Assembly (NCBI GenBank): GCA_026416715.1
Contig: JAOAEQ010000029.1
Location: 1 to 33,533 of the forward strand
DNA: 33,533 bases
Reading direction: 5' to 3'
Origin: a bacterium
GTDB taxonomy: Bacteria > UBP4 > UBA4092 > JAOAEQ01
Below the pieces are notes generated by a model. It was not told where the DNA came from and made no database searches. It saw only the letters and a list, made by a program, of their open reading frames with translations. Shown here one piece after another: positions 4,406 to 21,450 of this stretch. The position numbers were made by a program, and so were the translations under genes. Every line of letters begins with the position of its first letter. Within the stretch, counting starts at the first letter, position 1.

Positions 4406-4413
4406 AAAGGAGG
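4406..4413 (+). promoter_or_regulatory. Shine-Dalgarno site that fixes the ARPP-1 start
   Basis: AAAGGAGG ends 8 bases before the ATG at 4422. The upstream in-frame GTG at 4413 overlaps this site and so cannot be the start. Confidence 0.85.
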
Positions 4414-4421
4414 TGAATCCT

Positions 4422-5450
4422 ATGCCTTTGCATTCTGTAATCGAAAAATTCATCAATCAGCTCGAGTTCAGCGCTCCTCTCAATCATCGCAACCTGATGC
4501 TTTTCCCCATAACCTATCCAGAAAACGGCAATCCCGCTATTCCCTATATAACGTTAGATGAAGCGTTTGAAAAGCAGTTTCTGACCATTTCCGAAGTTTC
4601 TGATGGCGGAATTGTTCCTATCCTGAAAGTTACCAATAACTCCGATCATAAAATCCTAATACTTGACGGAGAAGAACTAATCGGCGCAAAACAGAATCGG
4701 ATTCTCAACACTACTATTTTAGTTCCGGAAAAAATATCGCTACCTATCCCGGTCAGTTGCGTTGAAGCGAATCGCTGGCACTATGTTTCGCCAGAATTTA
4801 AAACCGCAGGAACCCAAGCACATGTGAATCTGCGTGCTAAAAAAGCTGCTAGCGTTTATAGAAATTTAAAGGTATTCAAGGAATACCGTTCGAACCAAGC
4901 GGAAGTCTGGGATATCGTTGACCATATACTTTATTGTTTACGGACTGAATCTCCAACTTCAGCGTTACACGACGCTTATATCCATCATACAGTTACGCTA
5001 GATGATTATGTTAAAGCACTCTCATTTCAATCGGGTCAAAAAGGAATTGCGGTCGCAATCAACAACCGGTTCGTTTGTGCAGATATCTTCGATAAATCGG
5101 AAACGCTTGAAAAATATTGGAAGAAACTTATCCGCAGCTATGCGCTAGACGCTTTAGTGAACTTAATCGAACCTGAATCGAATAATCAGAAAAATATCCC
5201 GCAATCTGACTCGGAACACTTGAAAGAAGAAATTGCACAAATTAAAGTTCAAATGTTACAATCTGAGTCCGACTCGTTCAAATCGGTTGGGTTAGGCGAT
5301 GATATCCGGATTCGAGGCAAAAAACTGATTGGAACCTCACTGGTTTACGAGCAAACTCCTATCCATTTCGCTATTTTCCGAACTGAAACAACTGAAAATA
5401 CTAGTGTTAATGATGTGTTCGGTTTTCTATACCACCGACGGTTCCGATAA
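4422..5450 (+). CDS. ARPP-1 domain protein (ADP-ribosylation-associated family), function unknown
   Basis: The protein has 342 residues from the ATG chosen by its strong ribosome-binding site. I recognise the ARPP-1 family (ARG and Rhodanese-Phosphatase-superfamily-associated Protein) by the segment ILILDGEELIGAKQNRILN, followed by TTILVPEKISLPIPVSCVEANRW (split here: TTILVPEK then ISLPIPVSC). The C-terminal segment GTSLVYEQTPIHFAIFR is also typical. No signal peptide or membrane segment is seen, so it should be cytoplasmic. A low-complexity, charged stretch (about 250-275) separates the core from the C-terminal part. The family name reflects gene neighbourhoods with ADP-ribosylglycohydrolases, but neither partner is in this window. 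It is monocistronic, driven by a consensus promoter and faced by an XRE regulator. Its biochemical activity is not known to me. Confidence 0.75.
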   Translation: MPLHSVIEKFINQLEFSAPLNHRNLMLFPITYPENGNPAIPYITLDEAFEKQFLTISEVSDGGIVPILKVTNNSDHKILILDGEELIGAKQNRILNTTILVPEKISLPIPVSCVEANRWHYVSPEFKTAGTQAHVNLRAKKAASVYRNLKVFKEYRSNQAEVWDIVDHILYCLRTESPTSALHDAYIHHTVTLDDYVKALSFQSGQKGIAVAINNRFVCADIFDKSETLEKYWKKLIRSYALDALVNLIEPESNNQKNIPQSDSEHLKEEIAQIKVQMLQSESDSFKSVGLGDDIRIRGKKLIGTSLVYEQTPIHFAIFRTETTENTSVNDVFGFLYHRRFR

Positions 5451-14682: not shown

Positions 14683-15234
14683 CTATTGTATTTTTCTCAT
14701 TCGCCAGAGTTGCCAGCGTGGAAATAAACTACCGTTACGTTCTCTTTTCGCCCAATAAATCAGAAACGCTTTTCCTTTAATCATCGATTCCGGGAGAAAT
14801 CCCCAATATCGGCTATCCCGACTATTATTTCGATTATCCCCGAGCATTAACAATGAATTCGATGGGACAACTACCGGTCCATAATTATCGAACGATGGTT
14901 CCTTAACATACGGTTCAATCAGCTCCGAGCCATTGATTATTATTTTCCCAGCAGAAATGGTAACCGTATCTCCGGATAAACCAATTAACCGTTTAACAAA
15001 ATCCTGTTTCGGGTTCTCCGGATATTTGAAGACAACAACATCTCCTCGTTGCGGCTGTTTAAATAGATAGTCGAACCGGTTAACAAAAATCATATCGCCA
15101 ACTTGCAACGTATTTTCCATTGAACCGGAAGGAATTTTAAACGGTTTAACGACATAGGTCTGAACGATTAGCGCGACCACGAATGCTACGGTGATAATTT
15201 CACTCCATTCCCGGAGAAAAGATTTCTTCTTCAT
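14683..15234 (-). CDS. lepB: Signal peptidase I, first copy
   Basis: Signal peptidase I cuts signal peptides from exported proteins at the outer face of the cytoplasmic membrane. The 183-residue protein has one N-terminal membrane anchor (about residues 12-29). Its box with the catalytic serine is PSGSM (S38). The general base is K81 in DFVKRLIGLSGDTV. MLGDNRNNSRDSRYWGF near 131 is the conserved C-terminal box. The size is that of the small, single-anchor type. It lies 112 bases downstream of a paralogue with the same architecture. Both lie between lepA and hemW on one strand. The tail (residues 165-183) differs from the second copy and is rich in Arg and Trp. Confidence 0.95.
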   Translation of the reverse strand: MKKKSFLREWSEIITVAFVVALIVQTYVVKPFKIPSGSMENTLQVGDMIFVNRFDYLFKQPQRGDVVVFKYPENPKQDFVKRLIGLSGDTVTISAGKIIINGSELIEPYVKEPSFDNYGPVVVPSNSLLMLGDNRNNSRDSRYWGFLPESMIKGKAFLIYWAKRERNGSLFPRWQLWRMRKIQ

Positions 15235-15346
15235 ATCTAATACTGCTCAACCGCAATGACACAAAGATAAATCGTACCGCGTGTAACCTAAAAATGTTAT
15301 CTTAGCGTTCTTTGCCACTATGGAGTGACTGTATCGATTGGCTTTT

Positions 15347-15880
15347 TTAACTAATCAATCGTATTCTAGTAATTGGGAAGTAAATCAGGAACGCTTTCCC
15401 TTTAACGAACTTTTTATCTAAAAATCCCCAATACCGACTATCTTTACTATTATTCCGATGGTCGCCCATAACGAAAAGATATCCTTTCGGAACCGTTACC
15501 GGTCCGAAATTATACTGGCGCGGTTCATAATAAAACGTATTCGAATATTTAATATACGGCTCAACGATTGGGTTACCGTTAATGTATAATTTCCCATCTT
15601 TCAATTCGAGTGTTTCACCTTCAACCGCAACCACTCGTTTGATATAATCTACCTTTAACCCGTCTGAAGGTGCTTTAAAAACAATAATATCACCCCGTGC
15701 TGGCTCTTGAAACCAATAAAGAAATCGACTGACAAATAACATATCGCCTACTTTTAACGTATCTTCCATTGAGCCGGATGGTATTTTAAACGGTTTCATC
15801 GCAAAGGTAAATAGGATCAGCACTAAAGCAAATGAGGTAACGATGGTTTCCATCCATTCTCGTAACTTTGATTTCTTCAT
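15347..15880 (-). CDS. lepB: Signal peptidase I, second copy
   Basis: This 177-residue signal peptidase I has a single N-terminal anchor (about residues 12-27). The catalytic Ser is S37 in PSGSM and the catalytic Lys is K81 in DYIKRVVAVEGETL. The box MGDHRNNSKDSRYWGF is intact. The shared stretches KPFKIPSGSM and DSRYWGFL show it is a tandem duplicate of the gene at 14683, but the two have diverged well beyond a recent copy. An extra insert (about residues 115-126, FYYEPRQYN) distinguishes it. It lies 158 bases downstream of lepA. Both copies keep every catalytic residue, so both should be active. They may differ in substrate preference or timing. Confidence 0.95.
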   Translation of the reverse strand: MKKSKLREWMETIVTSFALVLILFTFAMKPFKIPSGSMEDTLKVGDMLFVSRFLYWFQEPARGDIIVFKAPSDGLKVDYIKRVVAVEGETLELKDGKLYINGNPIVEPYIKYSNTFYYEPRQYNFGPVTVPKGYLFVMGDHRNNSKDSRYWGFLDKKFVKGKAFLIYFPITRIRLIS

Positions 15881-17907: not shown

Positions 17908-18897
17908 TTATTTCGGACGTTGTCTTCGGGCATTGATGTCTGCAAAAACTACACCAGCGGCACCAATCATTCCGGCATCGTTACCGAGCTTAGCTAAAAC
18001 GATTGCAGTCCGTTCAGCTAAAAATTTAAACGCGCGTTTTTTCACTTCTTCCCGTGCAGGGATTAATAACCAATCTCCGGATTTCATCACGCCACCACCG
18101 AGAATAACCATTTCCGGATTTAATAGATTAATGAGCGTCGCGATTCCGATACCGAGATATTTTCCAGTTTCAAGCAGGATTTTCCGCGCTAGTTTATCTC
18201 CAGCGACTGCCGCTTCATAGACCAATTTCGAAGTTATTTTCGATAAATCATGGCTAACCAGTTCGGTTATTTTCGTTGTTTCGCCAGATTCGATCGCGAT
18301 AATGGTTCGTTTCACGATACCCGTTGCTGATGCATACGCTTCTAAACAGCCATAATTCCCGCAACCGCATTGTAGACCGTCTGGGATTAGATTTATATGC
18401 CCGGGTTCACCACCTGCACCATCAGCGCCATGCCAGATTTTCCCATCGAAAATCAATCCGCCACCGATACCAGTTCCGATGGTTAAAACAATTACGGTCT
18501 GGTTATCTTTCCCAGCGCCCATCCATTTCTCGCCGAACGCTGCGGCGTTCGCATCGTTTTCAATATAATACGGAAACGAGAATCCTTTTTGCATCTCGGG
18601 TAGTAACGGAACATTAACCCATCTAGCGAAATTCGGCGCTACACGCACTATCCCGGTTTTAAAATCTACTAAGCCCGGAGTCGCTACACACGCACCAACA
18701 ACTTCCCCTCGGTTTTTACAAGCAACATCAACCAACTGCTGAGTTAACTCTTGAAGTTGAGCTACCACTACCGGGAAACCATCATTCGCTTTTGTTGGGA
18801 TTTCTAATCGGGTCAGGATGTGTCCTTGTTCATCAACTAACGCTGATTTTATAAAGGTTCCACCTAAATCTATTCCAATTGCATAGGGGGTATTCAT
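17908..18897 (-). CDS. ROK-family sugar kinase (glucokinase-like)
   Basis: ROK kinases phosphorylate glucose or amino sugars with ATP. The 329-residue protein has the phosphate-binding motif GIDLGGTFIKSAL near residue 8 and the second motif VLTIGTGIGGGLIFDGKIW near 141. The zinc/ROK signature is EPGHINL followed by CGCGNYGCLEAYASATG near 178. All four signature cysteines or ligands are present. No N-terminal DNA-binding domain is present, so it is an enzyme and not a NagC-type repressor. Glucokinase is the usual label. Given the murein hydrolases in the window, an N-acetylglucosamine kinase role is possible; sequence alone does not decide. The ribosome-binding site AGGAG precedes the ATG by about 10 bases. 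Confidence 0.88.
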   Translation of the reverse strand: MNTPYAIGIDLGGTFIKSALVDEQGHILTRLEIPTKANDGFPVVVAQLQELTQQLVDVACKNRGEVVGACVATPGLVDFKTGIVRVAPNFARWVNVPLLPEMQKGFSFPYYIENDANAAAFGEKWMGAGKDNQTVIVLTIGTGIGGGLIFDGKIWHGADGAGGEPGHINLIPDGLQCGCGNYGCLEAYASATGIVKRTIIAIESGETTKITELVSHDLSKITSKLVYEAAVAGDKLARKILLETGKYLGIGIATLINLLNPEMVILGGGVMKSGDWLLIPAREEVKKRAFKFLAERTAIVLAKLGNDAGMIGAAGVVFADINARRQRPK

Positions 18898-19198: not shown

Positions 19199-20461
19199 CT
19201 ATTGGGAAACATTCAAATAGAATGCGGTGATTAACGAATGGAATTTATGCGCTTCCGCATCTGACCGTGACGGAATTAAAACGATATTCGTTCCGCCGAC
19301 TGCAATATCTCCCGCAATCCACGGCATCCGCCATTTATCGAAATTCTGATATACTTCAGTTAAAAACAGGGCACTATCCGCATCCGGACAGAAGATGATA
19401 TCCGGGTCACCGGCAACTTGGCTTTTATTTCCCATAAAATTCTTAATTCTCGCTGCTTCCGCAGAAATAACAATATCATACGCCATCGGTCCTTCAACTA
19501 TCACTTCCGGATTAACTTTATACTCTTCAACCAGCTTAACACTATCATAAATTGAGGAAACATTCAGCAGGAGTTGTTCCGTAAAATCGATCAGCCCGAT
19601 TTTCAGTTTACTTGATTTCCCTAACCCATAATTTTTTGCTGTTTCAATCGCAAGCTGAACCGTGCGCTTTTTCTTGACATAATCAGCGGTATCGACTGCG
19701 GCCGCAATGAAGAGATACCCGCCGTTCGGTTCGATAGTAGCCTTCCTAAAAATATAAATTATTCCGCCTTGAGAATCTGATAGGGTTCTCTCATATTCCA
19801 GCGTCCAAGGTAGTTCATGTATCACTGATTTATAGACGATATTCCCCGGCGTTATCCAGGGCATAATCAGGATATTCGCTCCATCCTGCATTGCTTGCGC
19901 GAAAGTATAGGTTCCGCTTAATTCCGCAGGTTTTGGTTCGAGTCCTAACCGTTTCGCTACCTCGACCGCATTATCTAATATCTTCTGTTTAACTGCAGGA
20001 GTAGGATGGATAATAATCCCGCCATCGCTCATCAGCAGCATTCCTTTCGGGGTTTCAAAAACTCGAATATGGCTGATGATATTCCCGGGTTTACGTAACC
20101 CGCGAGTTTCATCAAGAACTAATCGCATCAACTGGTCGGAAGTGATTTTCCCTTTAGCGAGAATATGCGCTTTCCCATCACGTATGAGCTGCATCGCAGT
20201 ATATACCGCTTCATCTTTATCTTTTATATCAATTATTTTTTCTTTGAGAAATAGGGCGAGCTTATCCCGATTGATGATTGTGTCGATTTCTTCTTTATCG
20301 CCTACTAAGAGAATATCAACAATACTGTTCCCAAGTTGTCGGTAACTATATTCAACTGCATGCAGGGAGAGTTCATCTTGTGCAGGTGCAACGATGACGG
20401 TGATCGGTCTCGTCTGCTCTTTTAGAATCTTAACGATATCCGCAAATTTTTCTATTTGCAT
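19199..20461 (-). CDS. Phosphate acetyl/butyryltransferase-family protein with an internal duplication
   Basis: Family members swap CoA and phosphate on acyl groups. The C-terminal third is clearly PTA/PTB: IVEGPMAYDIVISAEAARIK near residue 321, VAGDPDIIFCPD near 349 and IPSRSDAEAHKFHSLITAF near 396. The N-terminal half also fits (GKAHILAKGKITSDQLMRLV near 96). At 420 residues it is about 120 longer than butyryltransferases. The extra length lies in the middle. LLMSDGGIIIHPTPAVKQKI (142-161) is echoed by LFIAAAVDTADYVKKKRTVQ (250-269). ANILIMPWITPGNIVYKSV (195-213) resembles the motif that normally appears only near the C-terminus. The product and substrate are uncertain, and the enlarged form may not be a simple acyltransferase. 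No acetate or butyrate kinase gene is adjacent. Confidence 0.75.
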   Translation of the reverse strand: MQIEKFADIVKILKEQTRPITVIVAPAQDELSLHAVEYSYRQLGNSIVDILLVGDKEEIDTIINRDKLALFLKEKIIDIKDKDEAVYTAMQLIRDGKAHILAKGKITSDQLMRLVLDETRGLRKPGNIISHIRVFETPKGMLLMSDGGIIIHPTPAVKQKILDNAVEVAKRLGLEPKPAELSGTYTFAQAMQDGANILIMPWITPGNIVYKSVIHELPWTLEYERTLSDSQGGIIYIFRKATIEPNGGYLFIAAAVDTADYVKKKRTVQLAIETAKNYGLGKSSKLKIGLIDFTEQLLLNVSSIYDSVKLVEEYKVNPEVIVEGPMAYDIVISAEAARIKNFMGNKSQVAGDPDIIFCPDADSALFLTEVYQNFDKWRMPWIAGDIAVGGTNIVLIPSRSDAEAHKFHSLITAFYLNVSQ

Positions 20462-20610: not shown

Positions 20611-21450
20611 ATGGATAAATATAGTTCCCCGATTGTAGTTATTCGAATTGATGATATCTTCATGCTGGATTCGGAGATTGAACCGAGTAGTATCCTTAAT
20701 TTTGCGAATACAGCGGAAAAACATCTGGCGAAATTAACTCTGCATACTATTCCCGCACGATTATTACAAAAGACTAATAACTATAAACGAATGGAAAAAG
20801 AACTACGCCGGCATATAACCTTTGGTCACGAAATAACCCAGCATGGATATACGCATCAATGTGCGATTTGCGGCAGTACGGGACATGAATTTGATTGTAG
20901 TGCTACCGGAAAAATTGTTGCACAAGATATCCAAGTCGCTCAAATAAGAAAAGGACGTGACTTACTCACTCAAGTTCTCGGCATACACCCTCGCGCGTTC
21001 GGTCCCAGCGGAACCGACCGTTATGTTCCGCAAATGATTGCTGCAATGAAACAGCTGCGGTTTCCTTATCATACCGATGTCGGAAATCATCTTCCGTTCA
21101 TTGACCGTGGGATTTGGGCTATCCCAGTTCAGAATGATTATTGTTGGGCGTTATCGAAGAAAAAATATCGCTCGGTAATGAATAAGGCAATTGATGATTT
21201 TAAACGGCATGCGAAGCAATACGGTTATTTCGGCATTCTATTTCACGACCATTTCACCCGTATCGGGTATGAAAACGGGGTGGTTATCCATTGGCTTGAT
21301 GAATTTCTCACGAAAATCAATCAAATAACTGATGGTAATATTCGATTTATGACCTTAACTGAATTTGGCGATTGGTATCGTAAGAGATATCCCGGCAAGA
21401 AAAATCCTTATCATCCGATGAAAGGTAATAAGACTACTCTCGGTGCTTAA
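20611..21450 (+). CDS. DUF2334/polysaccharide-deacetylase-like protein
   Basis: The 279-residue protein has a carbohydrate esterase 4-like metal site: D14-D15 in VIRIDDIF and H78-x3-H82 in QHGYTH. FHDHF near 212 could supply the late histidine. This resembles DUF2334/NodB-type deacetylases, which remove acetyl groups from polysaccharides with a divalent metal. There is no signal peptide, so it would act inside the cell. Directly after H82 come C84-x2-C87 and C96 (CAICG, then HEFDC). These are not part of the usual deacetylase site and could bind an extra metal. TATAAT at 20583-20588 may be its -10 box. The gene stands alone, divergent from the PTA/PTB-like gene. The substrate is unknown. Confidence 0.7.
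   Translation: MDKYSSPIVVIRIDDIFMLDSEIEPSSILNFANTAEKHLAKLTLHTIPARLLQKTNNYKRMEKELRRHITFGHEITQHGYTHQCAICGSTGHEFDCSATGKIVAQDIQVAQIRKGRDLLTQVLGIHPRAFGPSGTDRYVPQMIAAMKQLRFPYHTDVGNHLPFIDRGIWAIPVQNDYCWALSKKKYRSVMNKAIDDFKRHAKQYGYFGILFHDHFTRIGYENGVVIHWLDEFLTKINQITDGNIRFMTLTEFGDWYRKRYPGKKNPYHPMKGNKTTLGA

Follow-up and report, generated by a model that had tools for sequence, protein, structure and literature searches.

Enzymes of the PTA/PTB family tie CoA thioesters to ATP production and act as dimers in which the active site borrows residues from the partner subunit. In the phosphate butyryltransferase of Clostridium acetobutylicum (CaPTB; PMC9706017), the C-terminal domain comprises residues 118-271, Asp217 pairs with Lys254 across the dimer, and Asp282 is expected by the authors to act on the substrate. 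For MtPTA, the same paper describes a CoA site to which one subunit contributes Asn279, Tyr282 and Lys283 and its partner Gln244 and Lys257; the contacts of GN..YK with CoA are made inside one subunit. According to a study of MaeB (PMC7902834), the PTA domain of that protein takes Q683 from the opposing monomer. Neither an internally duplicated PTA/PTB protein nor a heterodimeric Ptb was found in that part of the openly licensed literature that was searched.

The window examined here is a stretch of 33,533 nucleotides that makes up an entire contig of a 2.96 Mb bacterial genome, for which completeness is rated at 100% and contamination at 0.4%. The collection includes one further genome of its phylum. 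The contig carries a PTA/PTB-family gene as an intact open reading frame of 420 codons (Table 1). The encoded protein, detected in a single genome among those searched, is most probably a genuine and unusual variant of a known family of enzymes.

Family assignment and genomic setting

PTA_PTB (PF01515) is the only Pfam family detected in the protein. It matches above its curated cut-off (75.4 bits vs 24; E 6.6e-21), with the match split into three stretches. The best NCBIfam models are the phosphate butyryltransferases TIGR02706 and NF004472 (164.7 and 153.8 bits, the latter being the TIGR02706 score), and all lie well below their cut-offs, which for the Ptb equivalog TIGR02706 is 410.5 bits. 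The Pta equivalog TIGR00651 falls further short (30.7 vs 311.2 bits). By sequence, the closest solved structure is CaPTB (PDB: 7VG9). The protein resembles Ptb in its best family match, in its overall predicted fold and in the conserved KG, D, GP...D, K, G..D and SR.D motifs. It differs from Ptb in having 420 rather than approximately 300 residues, a second truncated copy of the C-terminal domain, a GN..YK motif that is intact only in copy 1, scores far below the curated cut-offs, and no linked butyrate kinase. With Pta and the PTA domain of MaeB it has a superfamily and fold in common; unlike them, it scores poorly against the Pta model, bears no malic-enzyme domain, and is encoded in a genome with a separate, normal Pta (contig C49, 426.7 bits). 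There is no malic-enzyme domain of the MaeB type at the N-terminus; the match of residues 1-193 to the Ptb profile sets in at the beginning of that profile. A reading made from the sequence only had put the protein at about 120 residues longer than butyryltransferases; this is borne out, with an excess of approximately 115-120 residues over ordinary Ptb. For comparison, 82 open reading frames scoring above 280 bits span 298-347 residues, measured from stop to stop.

The gene is flanked by a ROK-type sugar kinase gene (17908-18897, minus strand) on one side and by a DUF2334/polysaccharide-deacetylase-like gene (20611-21450, opposite strand) on the other. Elsewhere in the window, two adjacent genes at 14683-15880 on the minus strand appear to encode diverged signal-peptidase-I-like proteins, and a full-length ARPP-1 domain protein (PF20208, E 2.6e-89) is encoded at 4413-5450.

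It had also been remarked that no matching acyl kinase gene lies nearby. This holds for the contig, since the whole window is devoid of acetokinase-family genes, including a butyrate kinase beside the 420-codon gene; it means little, given that the genome has four such genes on other contigs (one each on C11 and C40, and two adjacent on C3, the second of them short and diverged). None of the four reaches the cut-off of the butyrate kinase model. Since kinases are encoded elsewhere in the genome, a partner kinase acting in trans is possible, and the absence of one from the contig is weak evidence either way. Within this set of genes, locus L125 (6944-9269) holds two overlapping tandem acetokinase-family genes, the second being short, strongly diverged and devoid of the start of the family model. 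At locus L126 (3825-6547), an acetokinase-family gene directly follows a putative AMP-dependent acyl-CoA ligase-like gene, near genes labelled as rubrerythrin-like.

Within its own genome the protein matches only itself, and a search with the single protein returned no relative among the genome contigs. Residues 173-300, searched against 386 genomes, returned the protein itself, a 36-residue match interrupted by a stop, and five proteins interpreted as MaeB, which align with 178-212 or 178-218. The likeness to the five proteins lies in their GN..YK region, which residues 178-217 resemble with 43-50% over 34-40 residues. Derivation of the GN..YK piece from MaeB or Pta was considered and rejected; the comparison with Ptb comes close to a tie (35.0 and 33.5 bits).

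The duplicated layout was sought widely. It was found neither among 98 relatives nor in the two genomes of the phylum, in none of 40 genomes of the phylum of G013 and 4 of that of G099, in none of the 80 best of 337 loci, and in none of 15 of the 47 plasmid records listed, where H1 covers 92% of the query in only 813 bases. Among the matches listed in at least 201 of the 386 genomes, judged by match span and open frame, it was likewise absent; frames of 342-380 codons were examined in part. Long frames of 426, 489, 765 and 823 codons were rejected as the same layout because each has one ordinary Ptb domain behind an N-terminal extension, and a listed frame of 557 codons reads as a 310-codon Ptb.

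Profile layout and predicted structure of the repeat

Ptb profiles were made from 28, and then from 110, normal-length Ptb proteins of other genomes. Against the 110-sequence profile the protein aligns in three pieces: residues 1-193 with positions 8-197 (151 bits), residues 194-214 with positions 245-265 (10 bits) and residues 260-416 with positions 157-305 (63 bits). This layout is nearly unchanged with the 28-sequence profile. Ahead of residues 194-214, the 47 profile positions 198-244 are missing. Since positions 245-265 are matched by residues 194-214 and again within the third piece, the GN..YK motif is present twice. The CoA-binding motif is intact at residues 206-211, and in its usual collinear place, residues 364-369, it is degenerate, with A364, L365 and E369 replacing the G, N and K of the family.

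Table 1. Segments of the 420-residue protein in window coordinates, and other ptb genes discussed in the text in the coordinates of their own loci
Feature	Coordinates	Strand	Basis
Whole gene, 420 aa, PTA/PTB-family protein with putatively duplicated C-terminal domain	19199..20461	-	ORF, PTA_PTB
Residues 1-123, N-terminal domain with K103-G104 motif	20093..20461	-	First profile match; pLDDT >90
Residues 124-193, putative copy 1 of C-terminal domain, front (hairpin, helix, strand), D146 and P153	19883..20092	-	First profile match to position 197; invariant residues kept
Residues 194-214, putative copy 1 strand and helix, intact GNIVYK (N207, Y210, K211)	19820..19882	-	Profile 245-265; pLDDT <50 in both models
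Residues 220-287, putative copy 2 front of C-terminal domain, degenerate	19601..19804	-	Weak sequence signal; predicted domain-front fold
Residues 288-390, putative copy 2 back: E295, G324-P325, D329, K340, G351, D354; GN..YK lost at 364-369	19292..19600	-	Third profile match
Residues 391-420, last helix of N-terminal domain, S398-R399 and D401	19202..19291	-	Third profile match to 305; pLDDT >90; limits set by analogy with CaPTB (PMC9706017)
Complementary tandem ptb pairs	L006 201-2172; L018 1393-3245; L105 4890-6655		
Complementary tandem ptb pairs (continued)	L171 423-2355; L172 418-2300; L173 381-2335		
Downstream ptb paralogue clade, D225F and D290E, beside intact upstream ptb	L070 6198-7109; L103 5783-6817		
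Downstream D225F and D290E paralogues (continued)	L165 1206-2129; L168 355-1311; L169 1065-2036		
Complementary Ptb types on different contigs	G180: L185 678-1667 with L184 571-1566; G314: L187 722-1711 with L186 787-1782		

The sequence-only reading had described a helix-plus-loop module at residues 142-213, which is present as M143-S-D-G-G and A195...K211, and had proposed that it recurs at 250-300 and 353-372. Part of this stands. The GN..YK stretch genuinely repeats a motif of the family: residues 195-214 match profile positions 246-265 with an i-Evalue of 3e-5 (28-sequence profile, one-sequence search), and the real sequence of residues 194-286 outscored all 5000 of its shuffles (12.2 bits vs at most 6.1 bits, 28-sequence profile). 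The stretch at 353-372 proves to be the ordinary collinear place of GN..YK in its degenerate form. The recurrence at 250-300 is weak by sequence, but the region is predicted to fold as a domain front.

Sequence support for a repeat of the first half of the domain (residues 220-287) is indeed weak. Of 5000 shuffles, 585 reached the profile score of residues 250-290 taken alone, 294 that of residues 245-300 and 555 that of residues 215-290; for residues 215-286 placed before the third piece, 69 of 3000 shuffles did so. The corresponding numbers in a glocal test with 1500 shuffles were 8, 16, 17 and 49 for four segments and 455 for the hairpin on its own. Among 367 segments from unrelated proteins of the window, 17 scored as well as residues 214-292. 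A self-comparison had been proposed as a check. For chosen segments, the number of shuffles out of 2000 that matched the self-alignment score was 10, 29 or 84, according to the segments compared; for the two halves (1-214 vs 215-420), it was 445. Between residues 194-214 and 340-380 there was no pairwise signal (1317 of 2000 shuffles equal). Plain self-comparison misses the GN..YK repeat, which becomes visible only with a family profile.

The AlphaFold model of the full-length protein (67 alignment rows) has a mean pLDDT of 78.3. Residues 1-180 and most of 321-420 are confident, and 190-300 are mostly of low confidence. Superposition on 7VG9 (Z 38.3, 296 residues aligned, 1.8 Å) reveals one ordinary two-domain Ptb fold, which, judged from the confident segments, combines the copy 1 front with the copy 2 back. 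This preference for copy 1 is partly by construction, since the alignment tied the Ptb front to copy 1. As the full-length alignment had partly built in the choice of the copy 1 front, residues 190-420 were predicted separately, with relatives aligned only from approximately residue 290 on and none over 190-289.

The model of residues 190-420 contains strands at 220-228, 233-241 and 249-255, a helix at 261-277 and a strand at 286-291. The ten-residue means of pLDDT across 220-289 are 70, 71, 52, 69, 88, 86 and 86, and residues 190-217 are below 50. Residues 231-374 superimpose on residues 121-259 of 7VG9_B (Z 14.8, 134 aligned, 2.7 Å), and the structures 1YCO, 3TNG and 3U9E together with Pta structures also match this domain. 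Against this support for a copy 2 front stands its weak sequence signal, and AlphaFold may be able to complete a familiar fold from any suitable stretch. From the match to 7VG9 and the domain limits of CaPTB, residues 220-390 of the model are best read as a nearly complete second C-terminal domain. Residues 124-214 are best read as a first copy of the domain without positions 198-244 and everything after 265; with positions 198-244 and 266 onward missing, copy 1 cannot be a whole domain. The active-site place of GN..YK is a presumed one, since pLDDT is below 50 there in both models. The internal duplication proposed by the sequence-only reading is the best explanation, with the amendments that the duplicated unit is the C-terminal (CoA-binding, dimerising) domain rather than the whole core and that copy 1 is internally truncated. 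A single ordinary fold with an unrelated insert and no repeat had been named as the outcome that would speak against it. That outcome came about in part: the full-length model is one Ptb fold, but a repeat signal is present and residues 190-420 fold as most of a C-terminal domain.

Division of active-site residues and competing explanations

Among positions that are conserved in at least 80% of Ptb proteins, 20 are present in both copies, of which 15 are kept in copy 1 and 6 in copy 2. Four of the positions shared by the copies are invariant (profile D149, P156, N258 and K262); copy 1 keeps all four and copy 2 none, where the losses of D149 and P156 are read from gaps in the weak front alignment and those of N258 and K262 are independent of it. 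Seven positions conserved in at least 99% are covered by copy 2 alone (G220, P221, G244, G278, P282, S287 and R288). Six are kept, and the only one lost is P282, which is I393 in the protein and is absent from copy 1. Copy 2 also keeps D225, K236 and E189 of the profile; copy 1 has a tyrosine at E189 and is missing the stretch that holds D225 and K236. In protein numbering, the residues kept are D146, P153, N207 and K211 in copy 1 and E295, D329, K340, G351, S398 and R399 in copy 2. No single C-terminal domain holds all the invariant active-site residues, as the N and K of GN..YK are lost in place. Since the copies keep complementary positions, the chain holds nearly one full residue set, split between them.

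The published contacts give this split a possible meaning. Counted by hand on the alignment, MtPTA Lys257 is profile position 236 and CaPTB Asp217 is position 225; D401 of the protein corresponds to CaPTB Asp282 (matched by counting). By these contacts and the positions of the residues, copy 1 carries residues with a role inside a subunit, and copy 2 carries residues whose role lies across the interface. The two copies are complementary in this own/partner sense, with D149 and P156 of copy 2 judged through the weak alignment. The own/partner split is largely confounded with front/back position in the domain, and only the N and K of GN..YK break the confound.

The layout is best explained by a tandem duplication of the C-terminal domain. 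It is considered somewhat probable that the protein is a Ptb-type phosphotransacylase with such a duplication (or with fused tandem ptb genes), whose copies have worn complementarily and which has one composite active site. The duplication would have arisen within a Ptb-type gene or, alternatively, two tandem ptb genes would have been fused by a deletion across the tail of the upstream gene and the N-terminal domain encoded by the downstream one. Copy 1 would afterwards have lost the 47 profile positions, and the two copies would have worn down in complementary fashion. A single composite site could then be drawn from the N-terminal domain (K103), copy 1 (D146, P153, N207, K211), copy 2 (E295, D329, K340) and the last helix (S398, R399, D401). 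The protein most likely still builds one site for acyl-CoA and phosphate; the chain would move an acyl group between CoA and phosphate, and the product would feed one acyl kinase encoded elsewhere in the genome. Since no relative with the same layout was found, conservation cannot test this function. Two packings may be envisaged. One ordinary C-terminal domain could be assembled from the copy 1 front and the copy 2 back, with the remainder extruded, as favoured by the full-length model and the position of S398-R399. Alternatively, the copies could be placed next to each other in the manner of the paired C-terminal domains in a Ptb dimer; that N207 and K211 have remained in copy 1 along with D146 and P153 favours this packing. 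It is a tentative and somewhat doubtful proposal that the chain is a pseudo-heterodimer, in which copy 1 would provide its own subunit's CoA-binding residues and copy 2 the interface-crossing residues of a partner, with one complete site per chain. If true, the protein would be the fused counterpart of a wider two-gene class of Ptb with split active sites.

Other explanations were weighed against a duplicated, active enzyme. The duplication may be present in a protein that is no longer an enzyme but a degenerate, possibly acyl-CoA-sensing relative of Ptb. The PTA domain of MaeB provides a precedent, as it binds acetyl-CoA without PTA activity in the study noted above (PMC7902834). The score far below the Ptb equivalog cut-off (153.8 vs 410.5 bits), the losses of GN..YK at its usual place and of P282, and the presence of a normal Pta in the genome all agree with a sensor. 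This is nevertheless doubtful because K103, D146, G324-P325, D329, K340, S398, R399 and D401 survive, the last at the position of the Asp282 that is expected to act on substrate in CaPTB (PMC9706017; matched by counting), and there is no attached domain to regulate. A duplication could also be dispensed with altogether if residues 194-287 were an unrelated insert in a single Ptb fold and the GN..YK-like stretch were convergent or a small stray copy. Such an insert would suit the 296 residues of the full-length model that align on 7VG9 at 1.8 Å, the mostly low confidence of 190-300, the weak self-alignment and the shuffle tests on 215-290 alone, most of which are non-significant. It is unlikely, since the GN..YK copy exceeds all 5000 shuffles, residues 220-291 form a domain front in the prediction whose alignment lacked relatives across 190-289, and the third profile match reaches back to position 157.

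An assembly or frameshift artefact that joins two genes or frames is very unlikely. While the layout occurs in only one genome among those searched and the codon-usage index of codons 194-287 (0.63-0.64) is poorer than that of the remaining gene (0.69-0.78) and similar to that of its wrong frames (0.59, 0.65), the frame is single and uninterrupted, no other frame of the gene has a PTA_PTB match, and the genome is rated complete with little contamination. The third-position G+C of codons 215-287 (0.40) equals that of the gene (0.41), the exception being the 21 codons of 194-214 (0.57). A frameshift in particular is considered unlikely.

Tandem ptb genes with a similar split

Adjacent ptb genes occur in at least 18 of the 201 matching genomes listed, from 386 searched. 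As a sample rather than an exhaustive set, 20 distinct tandem pairs were compared at ten residues; two of these, L162 and L163, are approximately 1 kb apart. The residues were divided into a partner-type set (E189, D225, K236) and an own-type set (K105, D149, P156, N258, K262, S287, R288). These sets were fixed after a first look; the place of E189 in the partner-type set, and of K105, D149 and P156 in the own-type set, follows the patterns here rather than a paper.

Complementary loss is found in 6 of the 20 pairs (L006, L018, L105, L171, L172 and L173). In these, the upstream gene lacks only E189, D225 or K236, and the downstream gene lacks at least one own-type residue and keeps all those of the partner type. 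The six pairs look as if they form obligate heterodimers, judging by their residues. Eight pairs have no loss at the ten residues, the L170 pair has K105N alone, in the downstream gene, and in five pairs (L070, L103, L165, L168, L169) the downstream gene has D225F together with D290E, a partner-type loss that is contrary to the pattern. Across all 20 pairs, the upstream genes have 0 own-type and 13 partner-type losses and the downstream genes 16 own-type and 5 partner-type losses, some of them mild (K105R, D225E, K236R, K262R). The Fisher P of 9.8e-6 for this distribution is to be read with the pairs related, the residues not independent and the sets chosen after the first look.

Like copy 1 of the 420-residue protein, the upstream gene of the complementary pairs keeps the own-subunit residues, and like copy 2 the downstream gene keeps those of the partner subunit, so that the order also agrees; unlike the single chain, the pairs are two full-length genes. 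Treatment of the six complementary pairs as independent cases was rejected because the own-type and partner-type genes cluster in a tree: nine of ten own-type genes fall in one clade (99/95) and five of nine partner-type genes in another (95/92), the other four being long branches elsewhere, with the bootstrap still unsettled. The complementary pairs may have one or a few origins. Descent of the two halves of the protein from these pairs is unsupported. The protein is absent from the tree, and the best BLAST scores of its segments are with single Ptb proteins, above those with the complementary pairs. Since the protein is not closest to them, the pairs are best taken as a parallel rather than an ancestor.

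If the proposed division of residues is true, the one chain and the gene pairs with a like split could reveal how a shared active site divides and then rejoins. It would also caution against annotating a gene of this kind, or either member of such a pair, simply as a butyryltransferase. The two-gene Ptb with complementary residue loss may outrank the single protein in usefulness.

Single full-length Ptb proteins, meaning the only Ptb in the fetched stretch and not necessarily in the genome, were compared at the same residues (n = 120). No loss was found in 115, an own-type loss in 0 and a partner-type loss in 5, namely L015 (E189D, K236L) and four with D225K, which are off-pattern. Ptb proteins of the L015 type are encoded in G180 and G314, two genomes that belong to one family, and each of these genomes also has a downstream-type gene (K105R, D290E) on another contig.
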